Below are positions 6,669 to 59,799 of a stretch of DNA of 64,000 nt, in pieces. The stretch is taken from positions 992,001 to 1,056,000 of the forward strand of contig JAFCMP010000334.1 of assembly GCA_017506865.1 (NCBI GenBank). Reading direction: 5' to 3'. Below the pieces are notes generated by a model, which saw nothing but the letters and a program-made list of their open reading frames with translations, ran no database searches and was not told the DNA's origin. A program made the position numbers and the translations under genes. The stretch's first letter is position 1. Every line of letters begins with the position of its first letter. The DNA comes from Tribonema minus. Its lineage: Eukaryota; Sar; Xanthophyceae; Tribonematales; Tribonemataceae.

Positions 6669-9600
6669 TCACAAGTCACTGAAGCCAGCACCAGCGGTCG
6701 GAGAGGCAGGCAAGGCGGCCTTGGACGCCCTCCTGGCGCCCCCCAGGCGACGCATGGCATCAGCACGGTCGACGGGCTTGCTGTCGTCGGTATCGTCAAA
6801 GACGATCAGGCCGTGCACCCCGGCGCTGACTCCAGCGGCCTCAGCGCTGCGAAACCTACGGGGGTGAGGGTCACTGCGAAGCTCGCCTGCGCTGACAAAG
6901 CCGGCCGGGGGGCTGGCACTTCTGGGGGACAGGCTGCCGCTCAGCGAGGTGAAATCCTTGCCTGAGCTGGTCGTCATGTTGAAGCTGCCGGAGCCGCCCA
7001 GGCCAAAGCCCTTGCCAGAGGCGCCCAACGCGAAGGCGGACTTGCCCCTCATAGAGACGGCGAGCTTGAGGCCCTCGACGCGCGGCGAGAGGCTCGAGAC
7101 GAACTTCTTGGCGGACTTGGAGAGCATGCGCAGCTGGATGAGGAAGGTGACGGGCATGACGATGCAGATGAGCGCGCCGTTGATGAGGAGGATGAAGCCG
7201 TTGAAGAGGGTGACGTTGTAGTTGTCCTCGCCGGAGACGTCGGCCATGATGAGCAGGCCGCAGTAGTACGTCAGGGCCAGCACGGTCATTGCGGCCAGTT
7301 GCAGCAGGTCTGTGCAACACAGGTGCAGCACAGGGAATAAAACTTAATTGACAATTGTGGAATGTCTTACAGAGTTGAGAGTCAGTAAGAACTGCATTAC
7401 TTGAGGGCAAGATTGTGACCCTACACGCCATTATTATTACTACACAAAAGCTCCTGTCAGCGGCGGCCAACGATGCGCAGGCCGCAGAACTTCTGAAGTA
7501 CATCAGGGCCAGCATTGCGGTCAACTGCAGCAGGTTGTAACACACAAGAAGAAGCACGACCGTAAAGAAGGCGTTGACACGTACAAGGACTAGCTGGTAT
7601 GCAGGCATAAATGCCGCAGCGGAATGCGTCAAGTCATGACTCTCGCTGTTCGAAGTGGTGATTGCCGGCTGTTGAGCAACGATACGCAAAACCGCGGTAG
7701 CAACTTGAAGTGGTGGTTAATCGCTGACAACTGCAGCAGGAGCTTTTGCAATCCTGTGCGGCACCGCAGAGACAAAGTCGTGGACACAGCATCACAATGT
7801 AGGTGTCGCAGAGACCATGTGTAATTTCAAAAAGTGTTGATACGAGTGTTGCTGCCAGTGTGCGCAGCAACTATTGCTCAGGCACAGGCCAACATGCCCT
7901 GCACACAGCTGCGGCAGCAGCTTGCTGAAAGGGGCTCTGAGACCAAGGCTCGCAGAAAGTGGTAGCACATGCACGCTGTGACATGGCCAACAAACGCAAC
8001 CGTCCATGCTGCAGCCCAGCCACGCCAACCAGCACACAGCTCTGCAAACATAAGCACAAAAGCGGGGCGCAACTGCCTAGCCTAGTGAAGCTGTAACAAT
8101 TGTCAACTATGTCAGTACAAGCGGCCGTTTGCATTTGCGCAAGCAGGACGTGACTGTCCCAGCATTTGTCAAACAGAACTCTGCTTGAGGAGCAACAGTC
8201 AAAGTTGTTGGTAGGATCCGCGAGCGTGCTTCACCAACAGCAGGTTTACAAGATGATTCCAGGGCAGCACAGGCAAACACAGCCACTACACTCTTAGCAC
8301 ATTGAGTATGACATTAGCACATGAGGGCGTGCAGTGCATCATGGTGTTTCATATCAGAGCTGCTATGCGTAGCAGCGGAGCACGCCGCTTTGCCATGGCT
8401 CGGACATTGTGCCAAGCATTGGGTGGTGATGTGCATGTTCATTTGTGTCACGCATGTGCACTCACCGTCATCATCGTGGACATACGCCTGGCAGTACAAG
8501 TGTACACCCAATGACACCATCGCCAGCAGCAGACCACAGCCACCTGCAGGATCCGCTCCGCTCATCCGCGACCCTGAAACCCAAAAAGCAACCGAGCACT
8601 TATGCTATAGGTGAAGTCAGTCAAGACACTAAACTGTTGAAGTTTGACAATGGTAGATTCTTGGCCTCACTTAGACGCACCAGAAGAGCTGTTGGTTGTT
8701 GAAGTTGAGACGGGTGGAGCCGTGCTATTGCACGCTGAGCAGTGATATGACAGTTGAAGTTGGCATGAAGTTGAAGTATGAATATCACCGTTGAAGTACA
8801 ATATCACATCAGGAACAACATCAACTTCAACAAGTGAGTAGTCAGCAGATGCCCCTGACATAGGGCTACAGCATGCCATTACCCAACTTCAACACCTGTT
8901 CTGCCCTGGAGACTTTGCTATAGCATAAGTGCTCGGTTGCTTTTTGAGTTTCAGGGTCGCGGATGAGCGGAGCGGATCCTCTGCGTCGTTGTGCCTGCAC
9001 GAACAGGTTACACCAAGCAAGCGCCACTTTGCCCTATAAATTTGCGGACTTTAGCAAGTGAAGCTGCACAGGTCGGCACGCCGCCCTTGCCCTTCCCTTC
9101 CCCTTCGAAGATCAATTTTTTAGTTTGTTGTACCAACACTTACGACAAACGTAGCTATAATAAAGCCAATTGAAACTTCATAAGACACTATTTGCGCAGC
9201 TGAACGCAAACTTCCCAAAAAAGTGTAAAAGCCGAACTTTAATAATGATCGTTTATTCTGTGCACGCGCATTTTCTTCGATACCGATGGATGGCCACACA
9301 GCCGATGGATGGCCGCACAGGCAGCGATGCTCGCTCGACAGGAATTGTTGCAGGTACAGCAGTCCCTCCTGCGCCGCTACCGCCATCATCAGAGGTTGTC
9401 TACCATCGCCGCCTCACGATCTGTGCACCGTGTAAACGTCACCCTTGTCGTCGTTGTGGCTGCTCGAGCTCCTACACCTACCCCTGACCCTCATTCTAAC
9501 CCTGCCCTTAACCCTGAGCGCCTACTAGTAGACGAGGCACCCTTGGTGTCAAACCTCAACTTGAACTTGAGGTTGCACACCTCTGCTGTAGCTACACTGT

Positions 9601-12600: not shown

Positions 12601-15600
12601 GGGGATGTTGATGATGTTGATGTTGATGACTGAGCAAGGGACGCAAGGTTGGGGTTAGGGTTAGGGTAAGGGCCGTTTTGAGGTGCCCAGCAGTTGCAAT
12701 GTAGACATTAAAGAGGTTTTCGCGAGCAGCTGAGATGTAGTATTCGGCTACATGATTGCAGGTCAGGGGCGGCCAGTTTGTAGTGAGCAGGCACTGGCAG
12801 CCCTGCAACAGGGGCCCAGAGCTGAAGCTTACCAAGAACATGCGGCAAACACAAACTAGTTGGTGGTTGCACAGTCAATCATGCACAAAATTTTCACCCC
12901 TCGAACTGAAGTATTTTAAAGTACATCAAATTAAGAGCCTACCCAGCAAAGTATGGAGCGCCTGCAATGCAGTCTTGTCACTTACCATATACACATGAGT
13001 GAGATGTGACACGATGCAAGCGAGTGGCACAAGCCTTGAGAAGTGCCTGCCGGTCAGTACTGAAGTCATCATGTCAAAGATGTCTCAAGCGCGGCCTGTT
13101 GCTGTGGAGCTATCACCATGCACACTTCCAAACCAGTATCCACTGCCGAAGCATATGTTCATGGTTAGGTCAGTCCCAACGGGCAATGAATGCAGGCAAG
13201 CGCCTATGGCTAGCAACATTTTTTGTTGCATCGACTGATAGTAAGATCGCACATCAGTTGTGCTCAGGCAGGGGAAGTCAGACGTGCTGCACCAGGCTGG
13301 CTTGTTGAGCATCAACGCCTCACTGAGCTGAGCATGCCATTGCCGCGGGACCTGGCAGAGCGCATCATGGAGTACACACGCGGAGCGTGGCTGCTGGGCT
13401 GTGTTGTAACCCTAATGTCCAGGCTCTTGGAGGGCGCAGTGCGGACTAGGGTGCTGTGTAAGATGAGACCCTAGGGATGCATAGGACACCCGGTAATGTT
13501 CAGGCTCTTCGAGGGCGCAGTGCGGACTAGGTTGCTGCATAAGATGTGACCCTACGAATTCAAAGGACACCCGGCCTCCCTTGGGATCGTTGTTTAGATG
13601 TACCTAAAAGTATAAGTCTACAAGTACATACAGAATTGATCCCTCAAATTACAGAATCATATACAAACGTGTTAGACCTAGTGTCAATTTAGCGTTTAGC
13701 ATTGGTTTCAGCTCAGCATACCTTTCATGGCCACCATCAGGTTCATCAATGTGTCCGGCCAATGGACGCTCACGTTCATCTGCCATCAACAACGCAGAAA
13801 AAAGGCGTGATGATGACAGCTTGAGCCGACTCACGGACAAAAAAGGGGCCAGGCCCCTCGCTGTCTTACCTGTTGTATAAAAAAGGCCTGAAGTGAAGCT
13901 GCTCAGCACAGCATACTGTCACGCTTGGGAATGCACTCATTGTACCAGCAAACATCAGATCAAAGAGCGGACTGCTTCAGTGCTGCTGCCGGGCCTGAAA
14001 TTGACACAAGTGTCAGCAGTGGATCGGGGCAGCTCTAAATTGGACTGAACAAGGTCAGCAATGGGTAATCAACGACTATAATAATCACCGTGTGACATAC
14101 AAAACTTTAAATCCGGCCTTGTTGGTACTGATTATATCAAGTGCTATTGAACGCACGCATTGACCTGTGAGGTGACAGTTTTAGTGGCTGCATCGCCCCG
14201 AGATTGGTATGCAGCAAGCACCCCATTTATTTCTGCAGTGCTGCAGCTGATTGAGGCAGATGTTTGTAACTCTGCAGCCGCAACAGCAGCTCGTGCGCTT
14301 CCTGATGTGATCAATCAACCACAATGAAAGTTTATCGATGGCCTTCGGGTTTATGTCATGGCAACTGGCGGCAGTTGTCAGGCCAAGCACGTGTCTGCGG
14401 GAACATACAAATGAAGCGGCAGACGCCTGCAAAGCGGATGAATCGACTGCTACCGAGCGCTGCAGGGTCTACATGCACCCGGGTAGTTATGCCTCAGTGA
14501 GATGCCCACTTGTTGTGGCGTGCCTTGCTGCGTCCCACACGCATTATGATAGGGACAGCAGTGCGGGCTCTCAATTGTAAGTTTCGGCTGCTGCAAACAA
14601 AGTCCTTTTGGAAGCACGGCTCTAGCTAGCATTCGGAGGTAGTAGTATGTAGTGCGTGGCACAGTGTGCTCTGAGCCGAAAACAGTTAAACGCACTGTCA
14701 GTGTGCAGCACAGGCACCACACAAGCATAAGAGCTGCCTCTGTTGCATGTCCTATGTATGGGTTCATAGAATTTTCGCCCTGGGGCGCAAGTGAACAAAC
14801 TACACGCACTCATGCTAGGGTCATCAATGGGTGTTGTGGACCAAACGCACCTGCAGTGACGAGAACACCTGAACGAAACCAATTGAAACCTTCATCTTGG
14901 AAGAGATGCTGCTGATGAGGGCAGAAAGCCCCTCCCTGATGCCCAGATTAACATCCACGGCCCTGGTGGCGTGGTTCATGCCTTTTACGCCACAAACAGC
15001 CTGCAACATGACAGGTGGGGTACAAATGCAACTTTCGTGAATGCTATTGCCCGTGCAGAGCTGTGAGGCAGATCATGGGGCAACCTCATAGTACTCGGTC
15101 TGCTTCTGACATTGTCAATTCTTAAAACGCGCCAAAAGCCCCATGATGATGTCCATGTGCTTTCACCACCATTCTATGATTCCTGAGCACCGCTGCAGTT
15201 GATGCTCCAACTCGGAGACGTTGATTATCATAGAGAGAGGGGTAGCCCGTGGCGATTGCTCGGGCGGGCGGGGGAGGGGGGGGGGGAGTCATAGCTGCGG
15301 TTGCCTATTCAAGGCCCATCCAGCCAGCTTACAATTTGCACAAGTCTCATCGAAGGCAATCATGTGCTGTGAGCATATTTGCCTCGCACAACGACAACCG
15401 GCCTCCCTAGCCTCGTTGTGATATGCCAGGATACACAGCTCTAAAACTCAAAAATCACCGGTGCCTGCCCACCTGCTGGCCGACATCTGCTGCATCCCCG
15501 ACAGATGCCGTGTTGCCACCATCCTCCACGCCAGTGTTGACGTCAGACACATCCGCTCCAGTGTCGTTAGCGCCCGCGATCTCTACCATGTCACCGATCC

Positions 15601-18600
15601 CGCCGTTGTTGCCGCTGTTGTGCTGACCACCCTGTTGAGCAGCGCTGCCACCGCCCACCATGCCGTTTATGGAGTGCAGCTGCTCAGTTGCCGCGGCAAC
15701 AACAGTTGTGCCGCCAGCGGTCTTGAAGTCGCCATCCTTGCTGGCATTGTTTTGCTGTGGCGTCAGCACGCGGCAACACAAGCCATGTCAGCAATACTCT
15801 ACGTCTGGTAGCTTTTGGTAACTGGCGGTGCGGTAAAGTAAGTCCAAGCACAGTCTGCACAACGTGCCACAGTGGCCCACTGGACTGGTCGAACCTTCTG
15901 TGTCAAGATGCATGTACTGTTCAGAGGAGATCTCACAGCTTTGATTATACTGCAGCGATTGCAGTTCAAGTGACAAGGCATACACGCCAGTGGTCATCAG
16001 CTGTCTGTGGCCACCTCCATGACATTTTCTATAAGAGAGCGCGTGCAGGTGTCAGAAAGGTTGGAGTGATTTTTTGCAGATGGACCGAACGAGCAAGAGT
16101 GAACGGTACACAGCGCTGACTATTACTCAAACGCAGCTTTCATGGCCTGCATACAATGATCCGACAATTACTATATTAGCATATAGCTTCTTTTGGATGG
16201 TCATGCATACATCCACCGTGGTGTCCTCAATGAGAGGAGCACATGAACTCTTTGCACACTGTGTGGCCAGCCACATGGCCTGTGGAATTGAATTTTCCAC
16301 TTCTGAATCAGCAATTTTTTATACCCACAGGTAACAGCTCGTGAGATGGCCATCTATGCCTATATGGCACCCTCAACAACCCTTAATGAGCATGCAGACG
16401 CCGTCATCACCGCCTGAACAGCCACATGGCCTGCAGTCGAGGCAAATTATTACATAAATATGTTTGAGTCATGGTTGAACCCATAGACAACTGCTCGTGA
16501 GATGCTTACCTCCAGCATGGCGCCCTCAACCAGGGAGCACGCGGATGCCATCATCACCGCGTGGCCGGCCACACGGCCTGCGGTCTGAGCACTGCCGCGC
16601 CCGCTGCCATCCTCAGCCATCTGACCCTCTGCCCGCTGGAGCGCCGCCCCTGCTGCCACGTTACTGCTGTCAACGCTTCGGCGTGCATGGGTGCCTGTTG
16701 TGCGGCCCCTGGCGGCGGCGTAGCTCGAGGGCTGGTGCTTGGTGATGCATGATGCGTGGCGCGCAGCTATCTTCGCGGCGACCGCCTCGGGTGCGCCCCC
16801 GGCCTTCAGCGCAAGAGTCACCGGGCGAGGGTCAAGATTACTACGATTACGCCGAGGAATGGCGTGCACATACACTCAGATGCGAGGTCAGATGGAGTTG
16901 AAAAGAATAGCGTTACGGTGCCTGGAACATGTACGTACCACGCATTGTGCAGCTCAAGCGCACAAGTAGATGAACTTTGTTGCGCTACATACCTGCACCG
17001 CCAGTTCTGCCGCCATAGCTTCCGTCTCCATCATGATGCTGCTCCGCCGACGCTCCTTGCGCGCATAGAACGGGATCGGCTTCATGGGGTCTGTGGGAGG
17101 GGGGTTCTGGTAGGGGTCGGGGGCATCCACCGCTTCCGGCGTGAAAGTCGGCGGGGGATACGCAGGGTTGAAGATGCTCTTGAGGTAGTACACCATGCCG
17201 CCCATGACAACAGCAGTTCCCAGCAGGACCACAATGCCGGCTTTGACAGTTGTGCCGGCAGCGGCGCCGCCCTGCACGATGCATGTGTGGAGTCAGGGTG
17301 GCAGTAAGCGTTAAGGTGGTGTCCACAGTAAGTTTTGAGTTGAGGGTATGCGCGGTTGCAGATGTTGTTGAGGTAGTGTACCATGCCGCTCATGATAACA
17401 GCGGCTGCCAGCAGGAACACAATGATAATGCCGGCTTTCGACAGCTTTGCGGTAGCGGCGCTGCCCTGAGAGGAGCATGTGCGGAATCAGGGTTGAAGCA
17501 GGTACTCTGGTGGAGTCACACACACTGGCAGCAATGAAATAGAGAAAGCAACAGCTTTGACGGCGATGCACATGTGCAGTCGTTTTTGTTGCAGCTTTGC
17601 TGCACCCTCGAGGATCCATCAACACCGCGGGAGTGACTGAAGCCCACATTTCCGCAGCCATAGTATGAGGTTGACAGCCCAGCCATGTATTTGCACTGTT
17701 GCGAGGGGGCGCAGCCAGAGGCGACAGTCGCAAGCAATGGCCCCAAACAGGGCTACGGAGCGAGGGATGATGACAGCTTTTAGCAGTAGGTGTTCAAGCA
17801 TGCTCCCAATGCCCTCAAAAATATGGCGTGCACGAACTGCTGCTCGGTGTACTACTAGTACTTACCTGACAGATGTTGCATGATCCGTCGGTTCCAAGGT
17901 AGAAGTTGTCCGCACAGACACCTGCGTGAAGCCATTGGTAAAATAAGTGCACTTGAATGCTTTGGTGGCGCGCAGCGCAAACACATGGGTACGTGAAGCA
18001 TGACAATTACTGCAGGCTGAAGTACTTCTGCATCTGACTATCATCTGACTAGGACATGCGTTGAGGAGCATAGCCCAAATGGTCTTGGATCGCAAACTCT
18101 ACGTCCGGCCTCTGTTGAGGCTTTGAATACAACATCGAATGCCCAAGCACCACTTCGAATGCTCGGCACATGCATTTTGCCCTACTATGACTGCTGGGTG
18201 CATCTCTGACACTTTGTGTCCATGGTGGACTCTACTGGCCCAACAAAAATAACAGAAAGGTGTTCTTGCATACATATTTGTTGTGATTGTGACCTGACCA
18301 TATACGCAGCTGCGATGTTTCAATTACCAAGCGCTTACTCTATAGAAGTATGACGAATGATCAAGAGACAGTGCATGGGGTAACCGCTGCTCTGACTGAA
18401 CTGAGTGTTGTTGAAGCAGCTGAGCACTTCAAGTTGACTGAGCAGCACTTCGCATGGCAACCTTTGGCTGCTGCTGAGCAGCTACTGAGCGATGACAGCC
18501 TGCACCCGGTCGACGGATTCCCAGAAGTATGTAGGGACTCGAGAATCACAGAAATGAACGTCTGACTCATCACGTGGCCTGGCAATTGCATTGGCAACTC

Positions 18601-21600
18601 AGGAACATCATGATTTGTGGAGTTGGTTGCAAGTCGTCATAGTCATCAAAAACAATGTCTTCTCTCCCAACAAGAGCTGACTTGCTGCCTTCCTTAAGGT
18701 TCTGTGCGTTTTGCGCCTGCGCCTCAGGCGCACACGCACCGTTCACTACGATCAGTGCAAAGATTGCATAATTGCCATCATCTTCACCTTCATGCTGATC
18801 TCTTGTGAATTTCTCACGTGAAGTACCCTTGATTGCATGAGGTGGTCACGTACCACAGAGGGGCCCCTTGCTTGAGGCCCGGCGCGCACGCACTGTCTGC
18901 GCCGCCGAGACAGTTGGCTGCCGTCACGCATGCGTGATACCCGTAGGTCGATGTGTCCGCGCTTTCTGGCTGCGCGCGCCAGTACGCCGGGAGCACGGGG
19001 GGGATGCCAGTGCCCTGTGCTGAGCAGTCCGCACCCGTGGGACACATGTCGCATTTGCCATCGCAGCCACGGGGGTTTGTACAGTAGGTACCGGCAGAGC
19101 ATATGACGCAGGAGTAGACGCCGCCCGCACCCTGAACCTGGTGCATCGGAATCAACGGTGCATGTATTAGTAATGTTAATCACTTCCATGTGGGTATCTA
19201 TAAGTATGTACCTGGGTTTCCTGACATGTATACTTTAAAGCATACATATACGATTGGTAATAGCCCCAACAGGCGAGAGCGCGTACACCAGCGATTCTGC
19301 TTATAGCGTCTGACACCATGCCATGATGGTTCTACACACAAACACGCTGAGACAGAGTCTGTATGCTTTGTGTTGGAATGAGTGATGGTGCTCAAGTGCT
19401 CAAATATCGTCAGCGTAGTGCCATGTGAACCTTGTCTGAGCTTGATCTCTAGTCCAGGAAAGCCACAGTCTGGATGCCTTCTGCTGCCAAAACCCATTGC
19501 TACCGTAGTGTGACATATTTGATTTCTTAGAACATGGCGTGCAAGGGGATGGCGCCTGCCAGAGTAAGCAAGCATGCACTGGGGGTGGGGGATACTCAGC
19601 AGCGCACCACAGGCCTTGAACCACGGTGACCGTGCTCTTTCAAACATCAGGTTCAAGTGGAACTTACTCTTCACAGCTACAGACAGTTCACACAGAGAGT
19701 TCACGCAGATGCCGCCGCCCTCATTCATTGACACTGGTGAATCAGCAGTAATCACATCCATATCAAGCCTCAAAACGTTAACTTGCCTGAGCGTACCCCT
19801 CAGAACCGCAGTCCACAGACGCCGTCACCTGCTTCTGCTCCACAGACGAGACACTTGCCAGCCCAACAGTCACTCCGTTGACCGCCAGCGCCGCTGTCAG
19901 GTCGTCATTGGCGCCAAGCGCCTTCACCGCTGCGGCAGCCTCCGCCTCCGACTGCACCACGATTGTTGCCGATATCTGGAGGTCGTTGGTGCTCAAACGG
20001 CGCCCCTCAATGGCCGTGGCCTGCAGGTACTCAGGGTGCAATGACAGATATCAGTGCATGGTTGGCCTCACTTTCATGCGATGCTGTTCGGGGTCCCCAT
20101 AGCTGGGACACAATGCATTTTGCTGGTGCTGCGCATGCAACGCAGGAACACATAATTTACCGGCGAATTCACCGCAGTGGACATATATCAATTGCCACGC
20201 AGGCTGACATGATGCCGTAATGTCAATACACGATAAGATAACCATCGTCTTTACTCAGGTATGGCATGGTTTGAGCAGCACCTCATATACGACAAAAGCA
20301 GACGCAAACCACCGCAGTGCTCGTACACCATTTGCCACGCCGGCTGTGGTGACTCCGTGATGATACATCAGGCCGCCTGAGGTAACAATCAGCTTTGCTC
20401 AGGCGTGGCATGGTTTGGGCAGCACCTTATACGACAGATGCAGACGTAACGCACCGCAGCGCACTTACATCAATCGCCACGCCAGCAGGGGTGACCCCGG
20501 TGATGTCAGCCACCGTGGCCTCAAAGGATGCACGCGTCACTGTGGTCCACTCGCCCTGCAGGTCCACTACCGTAAACTGAACCGAGACCCTGTAGAGGTC
20601 CACTTTGTAGGCGTTGAACGTGTACTTGACGCTGCTTTTGATTGGCCGGCCGACCTCCTTGACAACGGTGATGTCCACCACGGTGTTGTTCTGGATGGCG
20701 TATACCCTGGTTGATCATACACAGATTTGTGACGCGGCTTAGCACCATGTAACTCCTTACTAGTAGCATCTGTATAGGCCAGTGGGCTTGTAACTGGTGC
20801 AAGTCCATATAATAAGTGTTGTCGTGGTACATCCATGCACGCTGCTCATGATGGGGGCGGGGCTCACCATACTCATGGTAAAGCCCTGCTTGCTGCTACA
20901 GCAGTGAGTGCATGGCATAGACCGTGCTCCGCCGAACAAGTGTGTTTAGGCCTCAGCACATGGCCATTACTTGAGCACTTGGGGTTGGATGCAGCAGCTA
21001 CTGCTTGATAACTTGGTGCAACTGTAACTTAGTCATGGAAAAAAACTCTTGTCAGGGGGGCCGGCATCTTCATCGAACATGGTACTGTAGTGGAGGATGT
21101 GAGAGTCGCAAGTACTACAGTTGTCTAATCATCTTCTACAAGAATGTAGAGAGGCTAGGTTTCAACACGGTAGAGCAGCTGGTGGAACTGCATAAACATG
21201 AAAACTGTGGTTATTAAAAACCTAATGTGCTGCCGTAGGGGAGTGCGACGTCAAGTAGTGCTGCTTTAAAACCAGTAAATGTGGCATAATTTACCTCTGC
21301 TGCTTGAGGGGCGGACCTGTATTATGTAAATGCCGCCTAGACGTGGTACAATGATGGTGGGGAGGGACACAGACCCCGTGTTGACCGTTCTGTGTGTCAC
21401 GTCGTCCTAGTGAGGTGGCACGCGCAGCATAGCATATGCCTGGTGGCCGTTTAACGCCGGCTGATCCATCTACAAATGCAATTCAAATTCATAGTATGCT
21501 GCACAGTGTGTCTTTGTTTCAAAGCATACACTTCATACGCTGCATGGCTTTGCCTTGGGCTTGTAACGTACCACCGTGGCGTCGTGACAGTAAGACAGTA

Positions 21601-27600: not shown

Positions 27601-30600
27601 CGACAACAAAGGGCCTTGATGAAGCTAGGCACTGAAGTGCTCCTGTGACTCACGTAATACCTGTCGCACCACCATATCTGACTGCCTTCTGAAATATTGG
27701 CGGCCGCCGGCCCTGGGTGACATGCATGATGCCCACACCTGTGCAACTGTGCCACAGCCAGTGCCAGTAGTTTCATCAGAAAGCAACTCAACACTAACTC
27801 CAAAAGGTTATTGAGAGCTTACGTGGCACACGTTGAGCCCCCGCGTCCCGGACGCATCCTGCCACCCAATGGTCACATTGCCGTCAATAGCTGAGCTCAA
27901 GTCGAAGTCCGTGTCGATGATCTTGATCTCAAAGTCTCCACACTTGTGCAGGACCACCTCCCAGTGGACAAATGTCCCTCGCTCGTGTGACGTCGGTACC
28001 GCAGGATTCTGGCGCACAACCAGCGTCTCATCGTCTTCGTATACACACGACGAATCTGTCAACATTTGATAAATGGGGTGGGGTCATGATACTGCTGCTG
28101 ATTTTGCGCCAGCATTTTCACGCATACGGTACTGTACAATGCAGTCACTGTAGGCCCAAGTCGAATGAGGCGCTGCTCTTACTTGAAACATTCATGGTGC
28201 ATTCATGCTTTCTGCGTGTACTGTAACAGCACCGAGGCTGAGGGGGCTGTTGCGGAAGATTTCATAATCTGACCAAGCACGTATGTGAGCGTTCAATTTT
28301 GTGCACCCATTCCTCACATGTTTCAAGCTGCAAGCTGCAGCATATGCATTCACTTTGTGCCGGTTCAACTCACGGCAGAACTTGTCAGCAATGACGACAA
28401 CCTGTGTTACTTGTGGAAAGCATTAGCTGGTAAACACACTTTGTGATGCCACCCAGAGCTTTTCAATCTTTCGCTTCAGAATCTTTCTATTGGTTTCCAT
28501 AATAGTTTAAAAGCCTGTAGTTATAACTCTACCATAGCTATGTATTCTATGCCAACCTCAACACTGACTACTATTGATATAAGCTAGCGCTGACCCCTCT
28601 GCAAAGCTACTTAGTCCTGGATCAGTGACGTCTCTTCTACTTGTAGGCTACCTCTAACCCCAACTGCAACACTAACCACAAAGCAAATGTTGAACCTATT
28701 GCATCTTCTAATCTTGGCAGTAACCATTATTCTACCTCTACACCCACCAGTACACCGCGCAACTACTAGATCCCCACCAACACGTTCAATCCTGAAGTTC
28801 ACCAGGCCAATTCGAAGAACTCCAGGAGCTTCAGAAATGTCGCAAGAGAATTGCTTTGTGTAACTAAGGTCTACAGCTGGTGCGGCCGTGTACTAGCCAA
28901 ATTGAAGCTGGTGCTGGGTATGCAGTATTGGCTGAGCACCCTCGATCCCTGCACGCAAGCCACAATGTGCTCCGCAACTTCCTGCGTTAGCAATTCACTT
29001 AGTGGTGCAGATACCAGAGTCAGTGTGCTCTCGACAGCGGCAGTATTGCTCATTATTGGTAGCTAAAGGTGCGCACTAGTGCAAATGGAGTAGCTGTCAG
29101 ATCACCCTTAGGCTACTAGTACTATTAGTAGCCTTTACCCTAAGCTGACTTTGACTCTATACTTCTGAAGTGTATAAATGTCTAGTCCAACCTTAACCTC
29201 GCCCTGCCATTCATCCTCACCCATGCTTATAATCCCAACTCTGAACCTAAAAGTTAACCCTAGTTTCACCTTAAACCCAGCCTGATCCAAGCCCTAAGAT
29301 GCGCGAATGCGGTGCTCACTTGTGCACATAGAGTAGCCATCAAGGTCGGCCCAGAAGGGCGCGATGATGGGGTTCTGTATGTGCTCCACGGGCTCTGCAG
29401 TCGCCATCTCCAGACCCGGGCGATCCAGCCACGATGGAATGAAGCTCGTCATTTCTCCTCCCATAACTATGTAGCCTGCTGGGCACACATGGAATCCGCT
29501 GTATGTGTGTCCGTGATAGTCCCAAGTCGCATCTCCGCCAGGCCTGCCGCACGCATGAATGGGTGAAGCACAGAGTGAGTGGTAGTGCACAGCGGCGTCC
29601 TCAAGTTTGCTGTGAATGGTGTGTGCATGTCAGGTGCAACCATATATATATATAGTATTAAAATACATCACTTCTATATAATATTGTGCTTGGCAATGCC
29701 TGCCGTGCACGGCTGGTACTGGCTTGGTGAGCAGGACGGTGTTCGGTGAACATCGCCTACTGGCTCGTGGTCTTACATCACTGTGCCGTACTGACATTCC
29801 TTTACTGACCGTACAGACATTGTGCTTCATTTACTGCAACAAATGCTGAGGGGCAGAATTCTCACGGTGTTTCAACAATGATGCTCTTTGTGGTTCTTGT
29901 GCTGGTGCGTTTGCTGGCAGTCATGACTTCGAAGTATTGTTAGTTATTATGCGCTTACGACTTCAACTCAGTATGTACAAATTGTGCAAAAGTCAACGTA
30001 ACAGCATATGTAACAGCTACAAAATTCCTCTGGAGCTGTTGCCGAGGCTTCTAATACTGCAAATGAGTTCAGCACCCTGTGGTGCTGTATAACATCAGGC
30101 TGAGCCGCCTGCAAGAGACATCTGCCCTATGCAATGATATCCTTCACACACTGTCAGACACAGTCGCCCCCCTTGCGCCACTATTGTGTTTTCGGTTCAT
30201 GATTTTGCGCTTTTCTACTTGAACAGTATGTCATGTTTTTGAGCAAGATCAGACTCTTTTTGTGTCTCAAAATGACAGAACTCGCAATCATGGAGCTCAT
30301 GGGTATCAGCGTCAAGCTGAAACATCACGTGGCACAATTGCCTAGTGATGTCACAATGATCAGGAAATCAAGCCCTAGATGTGTACCCCTGGTGAAGACC
30401 TGAGCGGAGAGTTACCACCACCAAAACCTCCCAGCCTGCTTGCTGCTCTGCTGCAACCCCCATGCACGTCACTAAGTATGCCATTGCAATGTTATTCATA
30501 CCCGTAGTTCGGCCCCTGCTAACCTGGCTGGCAGTGCTGCTTCACTGGTTTGCGCTGCCAAGCATGCCCTTGCCCTTCCAGATGAGGCTGACAGTGTTTG

Positions 30601-36600: not shown

Positions 36601-39600
36601 GGGCGACACGAGGGTCACGATCGTGGCAGCAATTGCTTCAACGCCAAAGTGGGACAAAGCAAGGGGCACATCGATTAGGTCTTGCGCGAGGTTTGTGCTG
36701 GTGCTACTGCTGCTGGAAAACATCACAGCCGCAAAGTTGTTGCTGCTGGGGCCCGTCTCTTCCAGGCCAGAGTTGTCGGAGGCCAGCGTCGCAAACTGGC
36801 ACCTGCATGCAGCAACAACAAGGGGGGAAAGGACTGCAATGAGGAAAGTGGCGGGTTCAGCCATAAGTACTCATCAGCAGGCTGGAGGACACCGCTTCAA
36901 GGCTGTTGACGCTCCAACGCTCAGCCTCGTGCTAACCCTAATTCTAACCTCAACCCTGACCCTGAGCCTAGTCCTGACCCCAACAAAATTGACTATAGGA
37001 GTTCCCGACAGGTGTCCACTACAAAAGGAGGACGCTGATCCACAGTCGTTTACACTCTCTCTATAATAGTACTTCTATTGGGACAAGCTGCACACCAAAG
37101 CATCAGCCGCGCAAGGCACCTGAACTTTGCAAGGCGATGAAGGAATAATGCAAATACAAAATCAGAAGGTTCGCAACATGATTGGATACGGTTGGCCAAG
37201 GACACTCTTTCTTCACCAGGATATGCTTGCTTGGATGGACATGACGCTACCGATCCAGATACTTGAACGCATATTTGTAACACCGTACGGTGAGCAGAAT
37301 AGAGTGCATGCTAACCCTGATAACCAACGCAAGTGGCGCTCAGGCTGCCCCTGACACCCCCCTTGCGCACATGACTCGCGCTTTTTGCCAGTGCCTTTTT
37401 CCAGGCAGAGTGTGTGACATCAACCTTACCAAGACAGTTCTCTGATGCCCGAGCGTCAACCACATGGCAGTCAAGTGTGTGTCATGCTAACAACTTGAAG
37501 CTCATGTTAACTGCTTTTGAGTCAGGGTTTCAGCGTAAACAGGAATTTTCAGGTCTTTGCAGCCCGGAACCCTGCCACTCACATGAGGTTCGAACATATC
37601 AACTCTATGCCGTCCACACTACTCCATCCAACCTCATACACAAACCGCGCTGGGTCGATCACGGCATTGGTGCCCATGGCAATGCCAATCTCAGTGGCTG
37701 TGGTGGTGATGACGACCTCGATGTCTGCTGTAATTGCAGGGTCACAGAGGTCGCTGCTGTCGCGCAGCTGCACATCTGCACACGAAAGCACAGAGCAGGA
37801 GAGCAGTGAGTGAAGAGACGGGTTCAAGACACTCAGACGCTGCCCCCCCGCCCACTTCAAGAGCTCCGCCACGAGACTGGGGGACAGCCAAGTAGGACAT
37901 TTCTTGCTGCGAGAGCCTCGTCTGAAGCGCTGTAGAGAGCGCGCCCCCATGTTGCACTCACTGACAAGCCTTAGGGGTTGTTTTTGGTAGTCTTACATAG
38001 AGCAGCAGAGGATGATCCAGGCGATAGTGCCGGATGCCTCATTGAGTCTTGCAGTTTATACTAATGTTGGTGACAAACTGCACATATGGTGCTGCGATCC
38101 TTCGCGCCTTTTGATAAAAGGTCTAGAAAACCTGAACAGAAGCCGGGTGTTGATCATGCGCTCCATAAAATCATGTATATTGGCCATGCACCTCGGAGCA
38201 AGTTAATGTTATACACCACCACGTGACATACGCCCCTGTTAGGCTTGTGCACGCCGCTGAAGTGGCAATGCCCCAACTTAACTAGGAACATTGCCAACCA
38301 ACTATGCTACCTAGAGTCTAAGACATGCGAAAAAACGCTGTACGTGTTTGACCTGCCCCTTATCCAAGCAACGTTGCCACATCTACTCCTACGTCACGTA
38401 GTACGTAAGCGATGACACGGGACTTAACATTGTTGCCAGAAATGTAGACTGCCGGGCGGTACCATGCCAGTGGTATGAGCTGCTTGCATTGAAGATCAAA
38501 ACCTACATGAGACGCGGATGTATGTGGGAGAAGCCGCTGCTGCTGCTGATGCAGTCACTGAGCAAAGGTACTGTCTCGAGCGCGGGAATCAGAAGGTGCG
38601 CATGCACGTCCTCACGTAACGCTGGTGCTCATGCGACCAGCAGTGCAGGCACTGCTGATGTGGTGCAGACTTACAGTAGTATCAAGCACGGAGACATGAT
38701 GTTGCAGTTGGCGAGGTGCGCTATCCTAGTTTAGGTGGCGATCTGTACAGAAGCCTTGCTTTATGCGGAAGGCACGTCTATCATGGCTCATCCGCTTAGT
38801 ATATGAAAACACTGCCACACTGCGTTGCACATGTCCTTGTGTCGATGAAAAGGTGCAGCTGCAGTGCGCTGCTAGATAGCTTATGGAAAATGTTGCTGGT
38901 GTGCTCACTCACGACGTCGAGATGGAGGGCCTAGGTGCATCCCACGCACACATCACACCGCTGTGCGAGTGAGCCTTGATATCCCGGTACACACACTCAC
39001 GAGAAACACGTCACCTCAGAAAGATAACATAGCCACCGTCACTCACATCTCAGAGGCTCCTGCGTTGTGGATCACTGTACCACCGCATGTAGCATTCAGG
39101 GACCAAACATATAGCAATGTCGTCATGGGCCAGCTGCTGCACCTAGAAAGAGTCACACACGACAGCGCAAGAGATAGCGCTTCCGTGCGCAACCTCATTG
39201 TTGAACGCATACCTCGCAAGACGTTAGTGTGGGCGCCGTCACTTATCTCCCCAGTGCGCCTGCACCCCTACAAACAGGTCAATGAGAATACGCATACATA
39301 CAGCGATGCCAGCTGTGCACCCGAGAAATGAAGCACGCGACCACTTGTTGAGATGGTTATTATGCAACCTCACTGCAGCAGAGCACTCACCTTGGAGGAC
39401 AACAGCGTAGGCGCCGTCGCTCGTCTCTCCAGCGTACACTGTCCCACCGCAGGTCAAATCCAGGGGACCATACAGCGGCGCCAGCATGGGGTACCCACTG
39501 AACCATGTCCAGTCCACATTTCGCACAGAGATAGAGTCTGGGGGCCCGAGCTCGACGCCTAGATCCCTCAGGAAAATGAGGCCCTGGGCGATGACTGTTA

Positions 39601-42600
39601 CGTTGGTGTAACTGCTGCCATAGAAGGAGCCTTGGATTGACTCTGGCAGCTGCAGCAGTAGCACATCGCCTATGGAGGTGAAGGCACTGGTATATGGAGT
39701 GAGGCTCGCAGTGTCGATAGTGTTCGCAATTCCGGTGGAATCGCCTCTGTGCGCCGCCACCGATGTTGCAAAATAGGATCGAAGCTCCACGGCTGTGAGC
39801 AGCTTGAGGTTTGGGCACTCATCGGTGTACCCAGGCTGTAGAAGTGGGCACAGGGGCAGTTGTTGAGATCAGTACATGTAGCCTGCACATGGTGTATACT
39901 TTGCAGTATACATGTACCTGTATCATACGTAGATGTGAGTGTGTTTTTACCACTACTGCACTTATACACTTCGAAGTAGAAGCACTTCTACGCGCATATG
40001 TGTCACATTATGCAACCTGTTGCTGTACACTTCCAAGTATATACCTCAAGTTGAAATATAGTGTACATATATGCGTGTATTTGGTGTGCGTGTGCGAGTG
40101 CGCGTACATGCGTGCAAGCCATCATATCATGTAGTATCGTTGATTTTGGCACCTGTTGCTAATCAATCAGTCGTGAAATTTCACCAGATCAGTGTGCTTG
40201 TTACGAAGTGCACACCACAGTGACCTGCATGCTTTCATGGAAACTCTGTACTTGCCATGAAACGTTGACCGCCAGTCCTAAACTGTCAGCCCTGAGGCTT
40301 CAAGGCTTGGGACTTGCAATATCGGTGGTGACTCCGATGCTCTCTGTGTGGAAACAGCTAAATTAAGGTTGAGGTACACTAGGCTGAGGTCAACTTGTAT
40401 TATGTGTCGTTGGCACAGCCAGCGCATCACAGTCAGCGCAGTTTTAGTGCTAGAAGGGCGAGGGGGCAAGGCTGCTGGGGGCCATAGCAAACTGGGGACC
40501 CGTAGTGTCACAAGTACTTGGACACAGCATGCTCTGAGCAGCAAAGCCGGCATACTCATACTATTAGATGGCTTGCCCACCATGCCTCCGTCTGGGCTTT
40601 TCATGCATTGATATGAGTCCTTGAGGCCTTTTCACCTCGCTGGGATTTTCTGGTGTACGCGAGCATTCGGGTGAATATGTACTTGTCTTCAGAGTCGTGT
40701 TTGAATATAATCATACTCAGTCACTTGATCACTCTTTAAACTACCCAGCTTTTCCAATTGAAGCAGGCCTGGAATAGTCTTATTGTAGGTGCTATATCAT
40801 ATGACTATGGGACCCCAGGCTTTTTTTAGGTGAGGTTAGTAATACTGTGAAAAGAAACTATCCGATTTAAATCATTCGTACTTGTACACATTCACCTCAG
40901 ACTCAAATTTCAATTTCTGCAAAGATGAGTTTAAAAAAACCAAAATATGCAAGTCGATTAATCTCCTCTTGTAATGCCTTGCCTTTGAGCAAGATGGGCT
41001 ACTTACATCTCAGACATAGGTACCTGGAATAAGGGTAAGCACAGGTTAACACAGTCCGGAAGATAGGTAGAGATTGTCCGTTGCGTGTCAACCACGCTTT
41101 ATGATAGAAATCAAGATCTACTGAGAAGGACGTACATAATCCTTAAGAGTGCCACGATGATCTGTCAGTGGCGTATGTAGCCCTACTTTTGTTGCGGATA
41201 CTGTCATCTTTTCCCATTGGTGTTGCTCTATGAGTTTCATCAAGCAAATCCAAATGACAATTCACAATGACGCAGCCACTGGCATCCCCTGCAGGTATCC
41301 CTGGCAGGGAGCCAGCAGAACATGCAAGACCATTGTACATACTGCAATAGGTAAATTTTTTGTAAGTGATTTGGCATAAGTAGACTAAGGTACACGAGCA
41401 CTCGTTGTCCTCCGCCGCCAGAGGCCGGGTGGTCACCTACTTCCTTGCCATCAGTGATGGGCAACCCAATTTGATTACACTATAAACACAGGTTCACCAG
41501 CTGGCCTGCAGCTGTGCAGACAGTCTACTGCAGTACTGTGGCTTTACCAGGGAACATCTGATTTAGACCGGCAGCAACTTTGCGAGCAGTCTACTGGTGT
41601 TTGGTACAGACAGACCCAGCATGCAGGATATCGCAGATGGATGCATGTGCTTTGACAACGGGCTAACAGCATGTACATGATGACTCACTGTCCGCCACCG
41701 CCAGAGGCCAGGTAGTAGCCGTCCTTGGTGGTCGGCGCATCTGCGGCGTCAGCGACCGCCACCACAATTGTGAGCGTGCCAGGCTGCGTGGTGGCGGCAG
41801 CAGCGCCTTTCAAGAACTTCCAGCAGGGGTCCAGATCGGCGTCATAGAAGTTGTAGATGCTGCACAGCGTGGTGCCTACAGTGGCATTGGCCGTCTGCCA
41901 GCCCACGACGACATAGTCGGGTATGGACTCAAGATTGTCGTAAACGATGGTGAAGGTTCCCGTGCCGTCGTCAGCGAGGCCGATCTCAAAGCTCACGGTA
42001 AGGGGCGTCATATAGATGGGAACGCGGTCGTAGGCGATGACTGTTCCCTTGAAACGCAGGTTGTCGACATAGCCGATGTAGACACCACTCTCGCCGGTCT
42101 GGTGAGAGCAGCAAGAAAAGCAGCATCATTCAATCAACAGGTACACATACTGCAGTCGCAGTTGTCACTTTTTTTACCGCTCACCAGCATTGAACCAACA
42201 ACGACTAGACCGGTAACTAACTTGGTAAGTGCATGAACTGAACAGCAGTGACATGGCCCTTCGAGTTTGAGCACGTGTTCTTGGTGTCGCCGATGTAGAT
42301 TTGAAGTTCCAACCGGTCTGATGGCATCAAAGAGATGAACAACAGCGCTCAGGCTGGTGTCTGAGATGAATGTGTACAGTTGAAGTAGACGAAAGTCCAC
42401 TGAACATTGAATTACTTACCTTGAACCAACAAGAAGTGACTGCATTTTTGAAAGAGGTGTCACGGTGCACATCATGACAATAAGATCATCCTTCAAGTTT
42501 GGCTAGCTGGAGGGGACTCCGAGGCAGTCAACGTGGGGCTAAGATGACGAACGCAAGTGCGGCTCTGAACCTGAGTGGTCAGGAACTTGAAGGAGGGATC

Positions 42601-46780: not shown

Positions 46781-46880
46781 CGCATCTCGGTACCTGCACG
46801 AGTGTCGTACAGGTACCGTACAGGTACCAAACATCTCAGTACCTGTACGAGTGTCCGACATACACGCGTACCGGTATGAG
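46781..46880. repeat. GGTACC-rich tandem/palindromic repeat
   Basis: Two ~53-bp units sharing CATCTCGGTACCTGCACGAG / CATCTCAGTACCTGTACGAG, with internal CAGGTACC palindromes. Non-coding and intergenic. Confidence 0.75.
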
Positions 46881-46962
46881 TGTGTTTAGAAGTGATTGTC
46901 ATTGAGGTACTTTCAGATTGTCACATGAATGTAGATTCTGTACTATAAGCTTCAATTGAAAT

Positions 46963-47012
46963 CAATCATCTTGGCTTATTCGTGCCCTGAGCAAGATTCA
47001 AGAAAAAGTACT
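46963..47012. repeat. Dispersed repeat, copy 2 (partner at 22402-22452)
   Basis: CAATCATCTTGGCTTATTCG followed by GCCCTGAGCAAGATTC and AAAAAGTAC matches the intronic copy at 22402-22452. Confidence 0.65.
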
Positions 47013-47723
47013 AGTTAGTGCAGGACCGTACTCTGACAGTACACATGTTAATAACGAATCAAATAATAGGTAGTACACTGGCACATGCAGGCAATAGCAG
47101 CGCGGTTTAAACAGCTGTGGCTGCACTTCAAGTTGTGCTACCCAGTCACCAGCGCCAATGGTAACGCTTCAAGAAGTTTCAACGCAACTGCCTACCTGGC
47201 AGTGCAGCCTGCAAGGGGCTGGCAGCAGCACGGTGACGGTGACTGCAGCAGCAGCACCACGTTGCCGCGTGTGCTCAGGCAGCGGCGCCCTCATGAACTG
47301 CCGCTGCCGCTGCCGCTGCCGCTGCCGCTGCCGCTGCCGCTGCCGCTGCCGCACTCGCAGTATGTACTACGTGAATCATCAGGACCATCATGATCGCAGC
47401 GGGACCGTGACGGCACAGTCAGAAGGCCCGCGGGCGCATGGGAGTGCATCACAGTGGTGACAGCAGCGACTGCTGCCGCGCGCTCACTGGCAGGCGGCGC
47501 CTTCGGGGACGCTCATGCGGCGCTGCCGCTGCCGCACTCGCAGTGTGGTGCTGCATGATTTACTACGAGCTGAGCACTGTGACTGCCGCAGTAGTGGCAC
47601 ACGCATCCTGGCCGAGCGTGCGCAGTTACTGTACCACCGCCTGCCCAATTGGATCATTGTGCCGGAGGGCGAACTGGGAGAGAAGCGATGGTTAAATGGA
47701 AGAGAAGCATGCGTCTCGAATGT

Positions 47724-47772
47724 GAGGGGTCTTAGCTCATTTGGCGAGCGCGCGCTCAGGTAGCATGCACGC
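47724..47772 (+). pseudogene. tRNA-Ala-derived fragment
   Basis: GGGGTCTTAGCTCATTTGGC then GAGCGCGCGCTCAGGTAGCA: acceptor 5' strand, D arm and part of the anticodon arm of the tRNA-Ala at 48031. The T arm and acceptor 3' strand are missing. The ~45 bp upstream (ATGGAAGAGAAGCATGCGTC, TCGAATGTGA) matches the sequence before the intact gene, so the flank was duplicated with the tRNA. Confidence 0.75.
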
Positions 47773-48030
47773 AACTGCCGATCTGGCGGTGCCAGCATCA
47801 CCGTAGTGACAGCGACTGCTGCCGCGCGCTGCGGCGGCGCCCTCAAGGTCATGCAGCGCTGCCGCTGCCGCTGCCGCACTCGCAGTGTGGTGCTGCATGA
47901 TGTACTATGAGCACTGTGACTGGCAGTAGTGGCACGCGGCGCATCCTGACCGAGCGTGCGCAGTACTACCACCTGCCCCGTCGTCGTTTGAGATAGCGAA
48001 ATGGAAGATGAGCATGCATTTCGAATGCGA

Positions 48031-48102
48031 GGGGTCTTAGCTCATTTGGCAGAGCGCGCGCTTAGCATGCACGAGGTAGGGGGTTCGATTCCCTCAGACT
48101 CC
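48031..48102 (+). tRNA. tRNA-Ala (anticodon AGC)
   Basis: A full cloverleaf can be drawn. Acceptor GGGGTCT pairs with AGACTCC (one G-T). The D arm is GCTC/GAGC. The anticodon stem CGCGC/GCACG has one C-A mismatch and the loop TTAGCAT gives anticodon AGC. The T arm is GGGGG-TTCGATT-CCCTC with one G-T pair. There is no intron and CCA is not encoded, as expected for a eukaryote. T-runs at about 48103-48118 suit RNA polymerase III termination. The A and B box positions (TAGCTCATTTGG, GGTTCGATTCC) are conserved. Confidence 0.92.
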
Positions 48103-48445
48103 TTTATTTTTCGTTTTTCGGCCTGCGAGGCATTTGCAGTGGTGGGACATGCCCAGAAACTTGTTGATTTTGTTTTGTTTGCTTGTGTAAGGTTAGTTTT
48201 AATCCAATCAGCAGCTGCTGCTTTATTGATCCTGTTTAGGTGCTTGACAATACGCATGCATCGGTGTATGGCTGCGCTGCGCGCAGCCTTTTTTGTTTCT
48301 GATCGCTCCTCTGATGCTCACGCACTGAAAGTCGGGAGACCCCGAAAAAGCCTCCGTTGGCCTCTAATGCGTTGTTCCTGCGCAGCGGCTGCGCCGCTGC
48401 TGCATCAGTAGCTCCAGCCAACGTCGAATTCATTGTGATACACCT

Positions 48446-48464
48446 CCCCCCCCCCCCCCCCCCC
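48446..48464 (+). repeat. Poly-C homopolymer
   Basis: Nineteen consecutive C bases, interrupted by G before CCC. Intergenic; a site where assembly length is often unreliable. Confidence 0.9.
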
Positions 48465-48810
48465 GCCCATTTGACTTCAAGATGCATGGAGTAGTTCATA
48501 TCTTACTTGGTCCCTTCGTCTTTGTCGAGCAACCCTGATCACTTTTATCATGTTACGAAAACACTTCAGGCAAGGTAGCTGTTGCACCCCCCCTTCAGGT
48601 AAACGGTTTATGTTAGGGTCAGGTTAGTGTGCGCATGATGGAAGCTGTCGCAAGGTGGCAGAAAAGGATCGAGTACATTGGTTCAAACGTCAATTGTCGT
48701 TCCTGACCACACAGTTGTTGCCTCTGGCACTGTTCATGCCAACACGCTATAAGGCAGCAGCAGCACGTCAGTTTTTCCGGGTGTGACTCTCCCACTTCAT
48801 GTCTCGAATT

Positions 48811-48848
48811 GGGGGTTCGATTCCTCATCGCTTCGGGGCTTTTTTTCG
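48811..48848 (+). pseudogene. tRNA 3'-end-like fragment followed by a T run
   Basis: TTGGGGGTTCGATTCCTCA resembles the T arm of the nearby tRNA-Ala (TAGGGGGTTCGATTCCCTCA) and is followed within 22 bp by a run of seven T. There is no D arm or acceptor 5' strand upstream, so this is a fragment or SINE-like remnant. Confidence 0.5.
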
Positions 48849-49027
48849 CCTGCAGCAGTTGCCAGATCTTTGTGCACTGCAAGCACACGTGCAGCACACG
48901 ACCTGTGCAGATAGCCTTCGTTTTCGGCACAACTACAAGAAGGCAAAGCTTTCGTGAGCACTCACGGGCAGGAGGCAGTAGCGGCTGGAGGGGCACCAGA
49001 GCTTGCTGTCTGAAACGAGCCAAGGAG

Positions 49028-50877: not shown

Positions 50878-51543
50878 TGCGCCGCCGCCTCTCTACAGGG
50901 CGCTCTGTGCGCGGCGGCTCATGTTGACGGATCTATGTACAGGGCGCTGTGTGCATGTCAAAATTTCAGGCCCAGCGCGCTGTGCCGTGGCAGTGGCTCG
51001 CGCTACTGCACCGAGTTCTGAGTAGCATGAGGGCGTCAGCGCGCGGCGGGCTTGTCTTTGTGGGTCCAGGAGCTAGCTTGAGGGGTTTCGTGAGTGGCAC
51101 GTGCCCGAACAAGCAGGCGAAAGGCACGTGCCCGACAGAGATTTGTACGGCAATCAGCTTGGGAAGTCCTAGAGACTGTTGCTGATGCTACAGGCTGATG
51201 CCAGCAAGCAGCCAGGAACTTGGTCTCAGAGGAAGGTGCTGTCTTGTTAGGGTAGAGGTTGCTCCCAGATGATTTTATGGTGTGGCCGGTGAATGTGATT
51301 TGTGTGAGATTGAGGCCGTTGACGTTGTTGAGTTTTTTTTCGTGTTTAGCGCCTTCGCCTGCTGTCTTTTTTTTCCCTGCTTTTCTTCGTGCCCATGACC
51401 CCGGGAAGCTTCCGTTCCTTACGGACCCCGAAACGCTCGTTGATCTCCTTTCTTGCCATCATTCCTTCTGGCATTGCCTCAGAGTCACCCACTGCCCGCA
51501 ACAGTGATTTTGGTACCTCATCGTTCGGAAAAGCTGGTGGCCC
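50878..51543. other. Intergenic region between the RNase-kappa-like and RMND1-like genes
   Basis: About 670 bp between two co-directional genes. It should contain the 3' UTR of the first and promoter of the second. A short direct repeat (GGCACGTGCCCGAACA / AAGGCACGTGCCCGACAG) at about 51097-51138 includes two copies of the palindrome GGCACGTGCC. No coding sequence recognised. Confidence 0.6.

Positions 51544-59799
<8,256 letters not shown>

Follow-up and report, generated by a model that had tools for sequence, protein, structure and literature searches.

Diverged copies of splice junctions within introns of Tribonema minus

Intron lengthening without transposons is, to our knowledge, poorly documented. 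In tandem exon duplication and mutually exclusive exons, copies of exon DNA stand beside the original. The present analysis concerns a 64-kb stretch of the Tribonema minus genome (the window; contig C334, 992001-1056000, of an assembly of 158.18 Mb in 554 contigs), in which introns of two genes contain diverged local copies of their own splice junctions, termed echoes here. The genes are a giant gene on the minus strand and an RMND1-like gene on the plus strand. As in tandem exon duplication, exon DNA is copied next to the original; in contrast to it, the copied exon part is usually no more than an edge (median 43 bases over 37 junctions) with adjoining intron flank, and the copies look neutral.

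Precedents for duplication across a junction exist in a potato gene and in human paralogs. In the potato RdRp gene, tandem duplication across an intron-exon boundary is described as the source of a new intron and an inserted exonic piece, with support from RNA sequencing (RNA-seq) (Ma, Lan and Niu 2016; PMC4974935). As in potato, a local duplication over an acceptor copies the intron tail, the splice site and the exon head, and the copy retains splice signals, which work in potato and are mostly intact here. This is in contrast to the single gene described there in that the present sample contains dozens of cases, at donors and acceptors, and that the copy, judged from sequence, seems to be absorbed into an existing intron. 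De Grassi and Ciccarelli (2009; PMC2812944) described, for human genes within segmental duplications, internal tandem repeats located at the boundaries of exons and introns, with 27 intron modifications. Those repeat units, some of 62-126 bp, are likewise situated at exon-intron boundaries, where they alter the splicing pattern. The human cases as described involve recent copy-number variation and exon repeats turning intronic, whereas old, diverged junction copies are found here inside existing introns and in excess at junctions. Among novel Drosophila introns, gain of the Rogers type proceeds by duplication of an exonic AGGT segment (PMC2891723). Tandem duplication of gene segments provides splice sites in both systems, but the Rogers-type intron originates within an exon and resembles the opposite exon flanks at its ends, a geometry that was tested here and not found. 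Introners, as described in PMC9860276, share with the present case a large-scale change of eukaryotic intron content; they are dispersed, whereas each Tribonema copy is local and corresponds to its own junction when introns of the same gene are compared. The word Tribonema is absent from the main text of PMC9860276. Beyond these four papers, titles and abstract openings among the literature matches listed revealed no introns with copies of their own junctions, and none for Tribonema.

Junction copies in two genes of the window

The study covers 314 kb of the 158 Mb, comprising 264 kb of C334 (the window and the adjoining 200 kb) and 50 kb drawn from three further contigs; four small tubulin loci were also examined. 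Exons were called with our own gene finder, with outside support only for the giant gene, the RMND1-like gene and a myosin gene. The giant gene extends from 44817 to 6673 on the minus strand and corresponds to a public T. minus model of 2460 residues (JKP88DRAFT_241559), which covers 87% of our predicted protein at 93% identity, the comparison at the level of exons being made by eye only. The protein carries IPT/TIG domains (Pfam TIG, E 1.5e-8), and a match to NIDO (nidogen-like) falls below the cut-off. Of its 40 predicted exons, 33 were used in the junction tests and seven were left out; three of the 33 (at 41096, 38542 and 36231) are absent from the public model. The RMND1-like gene (DUF155, PF02582; 51621-59798, plus strand) is recognized by its domain match and by proteins of relatives. 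Its predicted exons are 52093-52272, 54481-54788, 55904-56029, 56776-56925, 57569-57662, 58227-58281, 58712-58879 and 59711-59798. Three relatives' proteins agree, with small changes, with the joins FILPYG|CIIFWG, DDMTF|C, RLG|(D/N)I(V/I)E and P|EFFWE; the exon start at 54481 has no support from relatives' proteins. We also note an apparent GC donor at the end of exon 58227-58281 (CCCAG|GCGAGT following 58281). Both genes are as the initial annotation had described them.

For each junction, local alignment of the exon edge, with 60 bases on either side, to the intron concerned was assessed against shuffles, a Gumbel fit rendering the p values approximate. In the first run over both genes, 14 of 76 junctions reached p<0.01, compared with an expectation of 0.76; each of the 14 alignments crosses its junction. 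The giant gene accounts for 9 hits in 64 junctions and the RMND1-like gene for 5 in 12. Several RMND1 boundaries were off by 1-16 bases in that run; with corrected boundaries and one more intron the count is 6 of 14, and in both versions one hit is a simple repeat. The initial annotation had listed 13 junctions with such copies. When its exon numbers are read in the order of the public model and mapped by eye, 12 of the 13 are borne out by the alignments, the exception being the donor of giant-gene exon 13 (25879), which has no significant echo in its own intron (p 0.38).

Two acceptors of the giant gene carry echoes. For exon 24 (acceptor 17271, p 4e-14), the functional copy at 17154-17299 and the echo at 17344-17493 include 118 bp of exon (17154-17493 in total), and for exon 32, which occupies 7309-6673 (acceptor 7309, p 5e-7), the functional copy spans 7238-7321 and the echo 7461-7544 in the intron (total 7238-7544). 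Donor echoes follow exon 3 (42098-41689; donor 41689, intron 41097-41688, p 1e-6), exon 4 (39835-39391; donor 39391, intron of our own model 38543-39390, p 3e-6), exon 8 (33375-32978; donor 32978, intron 31652-32977, p 3e-4) and exon 10 (29543-29320; donor 29320, intron 28035-29319, p 3e-5). The donor of exon 19 (20469, p ~0) lies in a functional copy at 20310-20505 with an echo at 20170-20362, the two being 74% identical at a period of 140 (20170-20505). Outside the earlier list, a further echo belongs to donor 16510 (p 1e-10; functional copy 16479-16585, echo 16323-16438, total 16323-16585) and a weaker one to acceptor 19131 (p 0.003). All these features lie on the minus strand. Repeat pairs in this gene are old, most being 71-78% identical.

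On the plus strand, the corrected boundaries of the RMND1-like gene give acceptor echoes at 54481 (p 2e-10), with copies within 53994-54524 identified by self-comparison and junction alignment; at 55904 (p 2e-8); at 57569 (p 1e-10; echo 57319-57391, functional copy 57506-57582, total 57319-57582); and at 58712 (p ~0; echo 58482-58618, functional copy 58618-58753, total 58482-58753). A donor echo is found at 57662 (p 0.003). The array before exon 55904 (55673-55910) comprises four successive copies of TGCGYCGCAG|GTGCAT, all of which retain CGCAG|GTGCAT, as do the copies at 55723, 55772 and 55835. Acceptors 55835 and 55904 are both intact and, with 69 bases between them, in frame; splicing at the former would insert 23 residues that three relatives' RMND1 proteins do not have. 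The candidate echo of the acceptor near 56776 was rejected, the match being a simple (GCC/CTG)n repeat.

Placement of duplications relative to splice junctions

Self-comparison of the 264 kb (E up to 0.05) reveals a landscape of local direct duplication. Among direct pairs, 246 of 381 lie less than 1 kb apart, the other 135 being at least 1 kb apart, compared with 19 of 227 inverted pairs. Identity ranges from 67 to 97% among the 206 pairs listed, and about 11% of the bases lie inside such pairs at E<1e-3. After exclusion of low-complexity pairs (dinucleotide entropy <=3.3 bits) and of pairs at least 1 kb apart, overlapping pairs were joined into 90 clusters, of which 50 span a junction and 40 do not; none of the 90 is mainly exonic. 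In the rigid-shift test, each cluster was assigned to an intron and shifted rigidly inside it for the expectation, with exons scoring below 10 and introns of less than 60 or at least 2500 bases excluded. Clusters with no assignable intron were also excluded, so that 58 of the 90 were retained for C334, and a further run retained 14 and dropped 4. A junction is spanned by 35 of the 58 clusters against 16.4 expected (2.1-fold, z 6.0, P 1e-8), and by 16 of 30 single-pair clusters against 6.6. The window contributes 6 of 8 against 2.5, and the other two regions 27 of 48 against 13.6 and 2 of 2 against 0.4. The enrichment of duplications at junctions over other placements within introns, which the initial annotation had asked about, is found in this sample of the genome. 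A simpler expectation gave 41 of 64 clusters against 14.0, and the rigid-shift figure is preferred.

The excess persists when the clusters are split. Among pairs at least 85% identical, 12 of 27 clusters span a junction against 3.1 expected (3.9-fold); in introns of at least 900 bases, 20 of 37 do so against 8.4; and where both conditions apply, 8 of 18 against 1.3 (6-fold), these tests resting on our own exon calls. With regard to unit size, clusters of 100-190 bp span a junction in 27 of 32 cases against 10.6 expected, below that size there is no excess (1 of 7 against 1.6), and above it the excess is weak (7 of 19 against 4.3, P 0.09). The rigid-shift counts for C334, these splits and the cluster counts by gene use the uncorrected RMND1 boundaries. 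In the giant gene, where introns are long and repeats few, 6 of 7 clusters are at junctions.

Base composition was rejected as the cause of the excess. In a looser test, in which a cluster within 12 bases counted as touching and exons scoring at least 5 were admitted (64 of the 90 clusters), 51 of 280 junctions were hit compared with 2.0% of interior positions overall; touching clusters were not counted as interior, which widens the contrast. The junction rate exceeds the interior rate in all five GC bins from 0.48 up (at GC 0.60-0.65, 0.279 of 68 junctions against 0.025), and the lowest bin holds four junctions, none of them hit. A naive count of positions finds 79 of 366 junctions spanned (21.6%), against 9.7% after circular shift and against 18, 14 and 12% of points at intron depths of 60-250, 250-400 and 400-700 bases, respectively; such counts are blurred because the echo copies themselves occupy the intron adjoining the junction.

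In 98 of 128 pair-junction rows, the partner copy lies on the intron side of the junction. In total, 64 spanning pairs, all in direct orientation, have their echo in the same intron, at 37 of 280 junctions. The ratio of aligned length to period in spanning clusters has a median of 0.99 and a lower quartile of 0.57, with unrelated spacers in some pairs. A preferred exon share of the unit was considered and rejected: 29 junctions chosen for a period of 100-190 gave a mean share of 0.29 of the period (Kolmogorov-Smirnov test against uniform, p 4e-6), while 16 single-unit alignments gave a mean of 0.43, not different from uniform (p 0.33).

The same pattern is observed on another contig, in a myosin heavy chain gene recognized by its match to solved myosins (within a 20-kb stretch, C1:1000001-1020000). 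Of 20 junctions tested here, 13 are crossed by an echo at p<0.01, comprising 7 of 10 donors and 6 of 10 acceptors, and two further acceptors have strong matches that end at the junction. Junction-linked clusters occupy 42% of the 8662 intron bases and the whole of one intron. In the 50 kb of the other-contig sample, a junction is spanned by 12 of 17 clusters against 6.6 expected (P 0.0025), all 12 of them in the myosin gene, and 15 of 17 lie within 12 bases of one against 8.3 expected, all 15 in the myosin gene. The longer-unit class is also enriched in this sample (4 of 4 against 1.8), and a strict rule of 100-190 bp, clear in C334, was not repeated and was rejected. For the window and the myosin gene combined, that is, for genes with a public model or homology, the rigid-shift P is 2e-5. 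In contrast, no junction echo was found in three 10-kb stretches (C1a, C50 and C150), where 13 predicted introns hold two clusters, neither at a junction, nor in four tubulin loci of about 3.5 kb each; the introns between predicted tubulin exons on C142 and C513 are about 230-290 bases long. The proposal in the initial annotation that introns grow through junction-spanning duplication thus receives support from the excess in the window, the adjoining 200 kb and the myosin gene, and its extension to the whole genome is too wide, given the clusters away from junctions in the three stretches and the echo-free tubulin loci. We also note that at positions 4056-3918 of the 20-kb myosin stretch an exon end with a poor donor, GTTAGG, lies beside an echo with a good donor, GTGAGC; this is possibly a hand-over of the active splice site.

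Decay of the copies and competing explanations

The initial annotation held that only one copy in each set keeps both a good splice site and a conserved exon, the dead copies showing AG>AA, GT>AT or GT>CT changes or stops. Broken sites as a general rule were not confirmed by comparison of the 64 pairs in the 264 kb, nor is loss of the extra sites supported as the way in which one junction stays active. The echoes retain GT in 30 of 36 cases and AG in 23 of 28, a broken dinucleotide occurs in 11 of 64 only, and the four RMND1 copies before 55904 all keep CGCAG|GTGCAT. Of the 64 echo sites, 49 score above 5 bits, a level attained by 12-16% of GT or AG dinucleotides taken at random from introns, and 37 of 64 score at least as high as the real site, although mean scores are lower for echoes (5.6 against 8.0 bits for donors, 5.8 against 6.9 bits for acceptors). 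Identity within pairs is 0.888 in exon, 0.900 at the splice site, 0.844 in adjoining intron and 0.831 beyond 25 bases. If an intron pair represents two neutral branches (16.9%) and a site pair one, the single branch of about 8.5% predicts a site identity of about 0.915 with 84% of dinucleotides intact. The observed values, 0.900 and 53 of 64, are near that expectation, which suggests that the echoes are neutral; conservation of echo sites above the neutral expectation was not found in these pairs. Since most echoes retain good sites, the choice of splice site must come from context, perhaps from exon definition. The median exon length is 158 bases over 190 predicted exons.

We regard as probable that local duplication recurs in this genome, is favoured at exon edges, and is absorbed into introns where the copies decay neutrally. 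T. minus would repeatedly make short local direct duplications, mostly of 100-200 bp. Copies wholly within coding exons would be purged by selection, and exon-edge copies would survive if splicing stays with the junction delimiting an exon of normal size; under exon definition, this exon-proximal site would be selected. The extra exon edge and splice site would then become intron, the intron growing by about one unit, and the echo would decay at the neutral rate, its intact decoy site persisting for long. On this account echoes are presumably not spliced in, and the junction excess would be mutational, duplication being favoured at or near exons. A more specific version, in which segments of about 100-190 bp, comparable with the 147 bp of a nucleosome, are preferentially copied across splice junctions, is possible but tentative. 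Its size component is weak, as the 100-190 bp class was defined post hoc and units above that size are enriched as well in the other-contig sample; the direction toward junctions is its stronger part.

Several observations weigh against the account of recurrent duplication at exon edges. Intron-interior control windows score as well, with p<0.01 in 33 of 397 for the giant gene and 12 of 51 for RMND1; among those listed at p<0.003, many represent the second copy of a junction echo or the microsatellite, and the remainder are separate interior repeats, clear in intron 12630-14850 and weak in two other introns. Self-comparison and this control also identify an 81-bp tandem duplication that is entirely intronic (13413-13574, minus strand). 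The partner copy lies on the exon side in 30 of 128 pair-junction rows, and some young echoes have unrelated spacers, so that not all are clean head-to-tail duplications. Independent confirmation comes from one gene, as 15 of the 17 other-contig clusters belong to myosin and the other two are not at junctions. Exons were called by our own gene finder, and mistakes of this program within repeats could raise the number of spanning clusters. In the public giant-gene model, one echo (17465-17382) is taken as an exon.

Duplications might instead fall anywhere in genes, the exonic ones being purged and the junction-spanning ones remaining visible longer through their conserved functional copy. The greater likeness of the exon parts of pairs (0.888 against 0.831) is as expected from such a bias, slower decay may matter most among the old giant-gene pairs, the naive counts differ little (21.6% of junctions against 18% of points 60-250 bases into introns), and local duplications occur outside both genes as well: the region of tRNA-Ala(AGC) at 48030-48104 (plus strand) has a diverged upstream copy, 74% identical (47446-48104), and represents the same duplication process. 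Detection bias should fade among similar pairs, whereas the excess rises with similarity, from 2.1-fold overall to 3.9-fold and, in long introns, 6-fold, and all 15 myosin clusters are within 12 bases of a junction. Because the excess persists at 85% identity or more in introns of at least 900 bases, slow decay of the conserved copy is not the whole cause. Pure detection bias was rejected as a full explanation, and we consider absence of any junction preference unlikely. Slightly more credence, though still rather little, is due to the idea that introns were short at the onset of growth, so that any 150-bp duplication included a junction and later ones recopied echo DNA with no targeting. The share of myosin intron sequence that is junction-linked, including one entire intron, and the short echo-free tubulin introns fit this idea. 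Against it, the excess is equally strong in introns of at least 900 bases, and stronger there among similar pairs, and the giant gene has its few clusters at junctions despite long introns; short ancestral introns were therefore rejected as the full explanation.

It is quite improbable that the echoes are functional, as alternative splice sites or exon ends under selection. Most echo sites are intact and many are strong, the RMND1 copy at 55835 is in frame, the public giant-gene model uses one echo as an exon, and our gene finder placed in-frame echo mini-exons in myosin; yet divergence at echo sites matches neutral decay, three echo-encoded myosin segments lie beyond the listed alignments to myosin-Va, with a fourth gapped in them, and the 23-residue RMND1 insert is missing from the relatives' proteins. 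Gain of new introns, either by tandem duplication of exonic AGGT segments or by introner transposons, is very improbable, even though several junctions read AG|GT and introners are described from many eukaryotes (PMC9860276). Comparison of intron starts with downstream exon starts and of intron ends with upstream exon ends gave p<0.01 in 0 of 62 cases for the giant gene, 0 of 14 for RMND1 and 1 of 20 for myosin; 1 in 96 is as chance gives, and the Rogers-type route was rejected. As for introners, the 14 two-gene hits and the 13 myosin hits each have their highest score, among the introns of the same gene, in their own intron, and within 6.7-53 kb of the window a single distant direct pair was seen at E<1e-3. 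Misassembly, whether of haplotypes or of reads, is barely credible, since the copies differ by 3-33%, at many identities, on two contigs.

Splice choice, annotation and minor features

The T. minus genome offers many direct traces of intron lengthening, at both splice sites, that are datable against a relative. It also presents a challenge to splicing: decoy sites are often 100-200 bases away and over half of them (37 of 64) score at least as high as the real site, and still the coding exon seems to be the one selected. The question raised is how decoys that are nearly identical come to be disregarded in splicing. Gene finders are misled by the copies, as observed for the public model and for our own, and the annotation of such genomes is affected; the echo taken as an exon at 17465-17382 gives the public predicted protein two similar hydrophobic segments in succession.

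A few further features of the introns were noted. The last long intron of the giant gene contains, at 9120-9227 on the minus strand, a short match to mitochondrial NADH dehydrogenase subunit 1 (PF00146, E 1e-5, 25.4 bits, cut-off 27), which is perhaps a nuclear fragment of mitochondrial DNA, and an imperfect inverted repeat of about 430 bases at 70% (8548-8980). In the RMND1-like gene, a long GCT/CCG microsatellite occupies 56428-56771 of an intron. Telomere-like (CCCTAA/TTAGGG) stretches are situated within introns at 56038-56084 of the window and at 124186-124340 of the joined 264 kb of C334.

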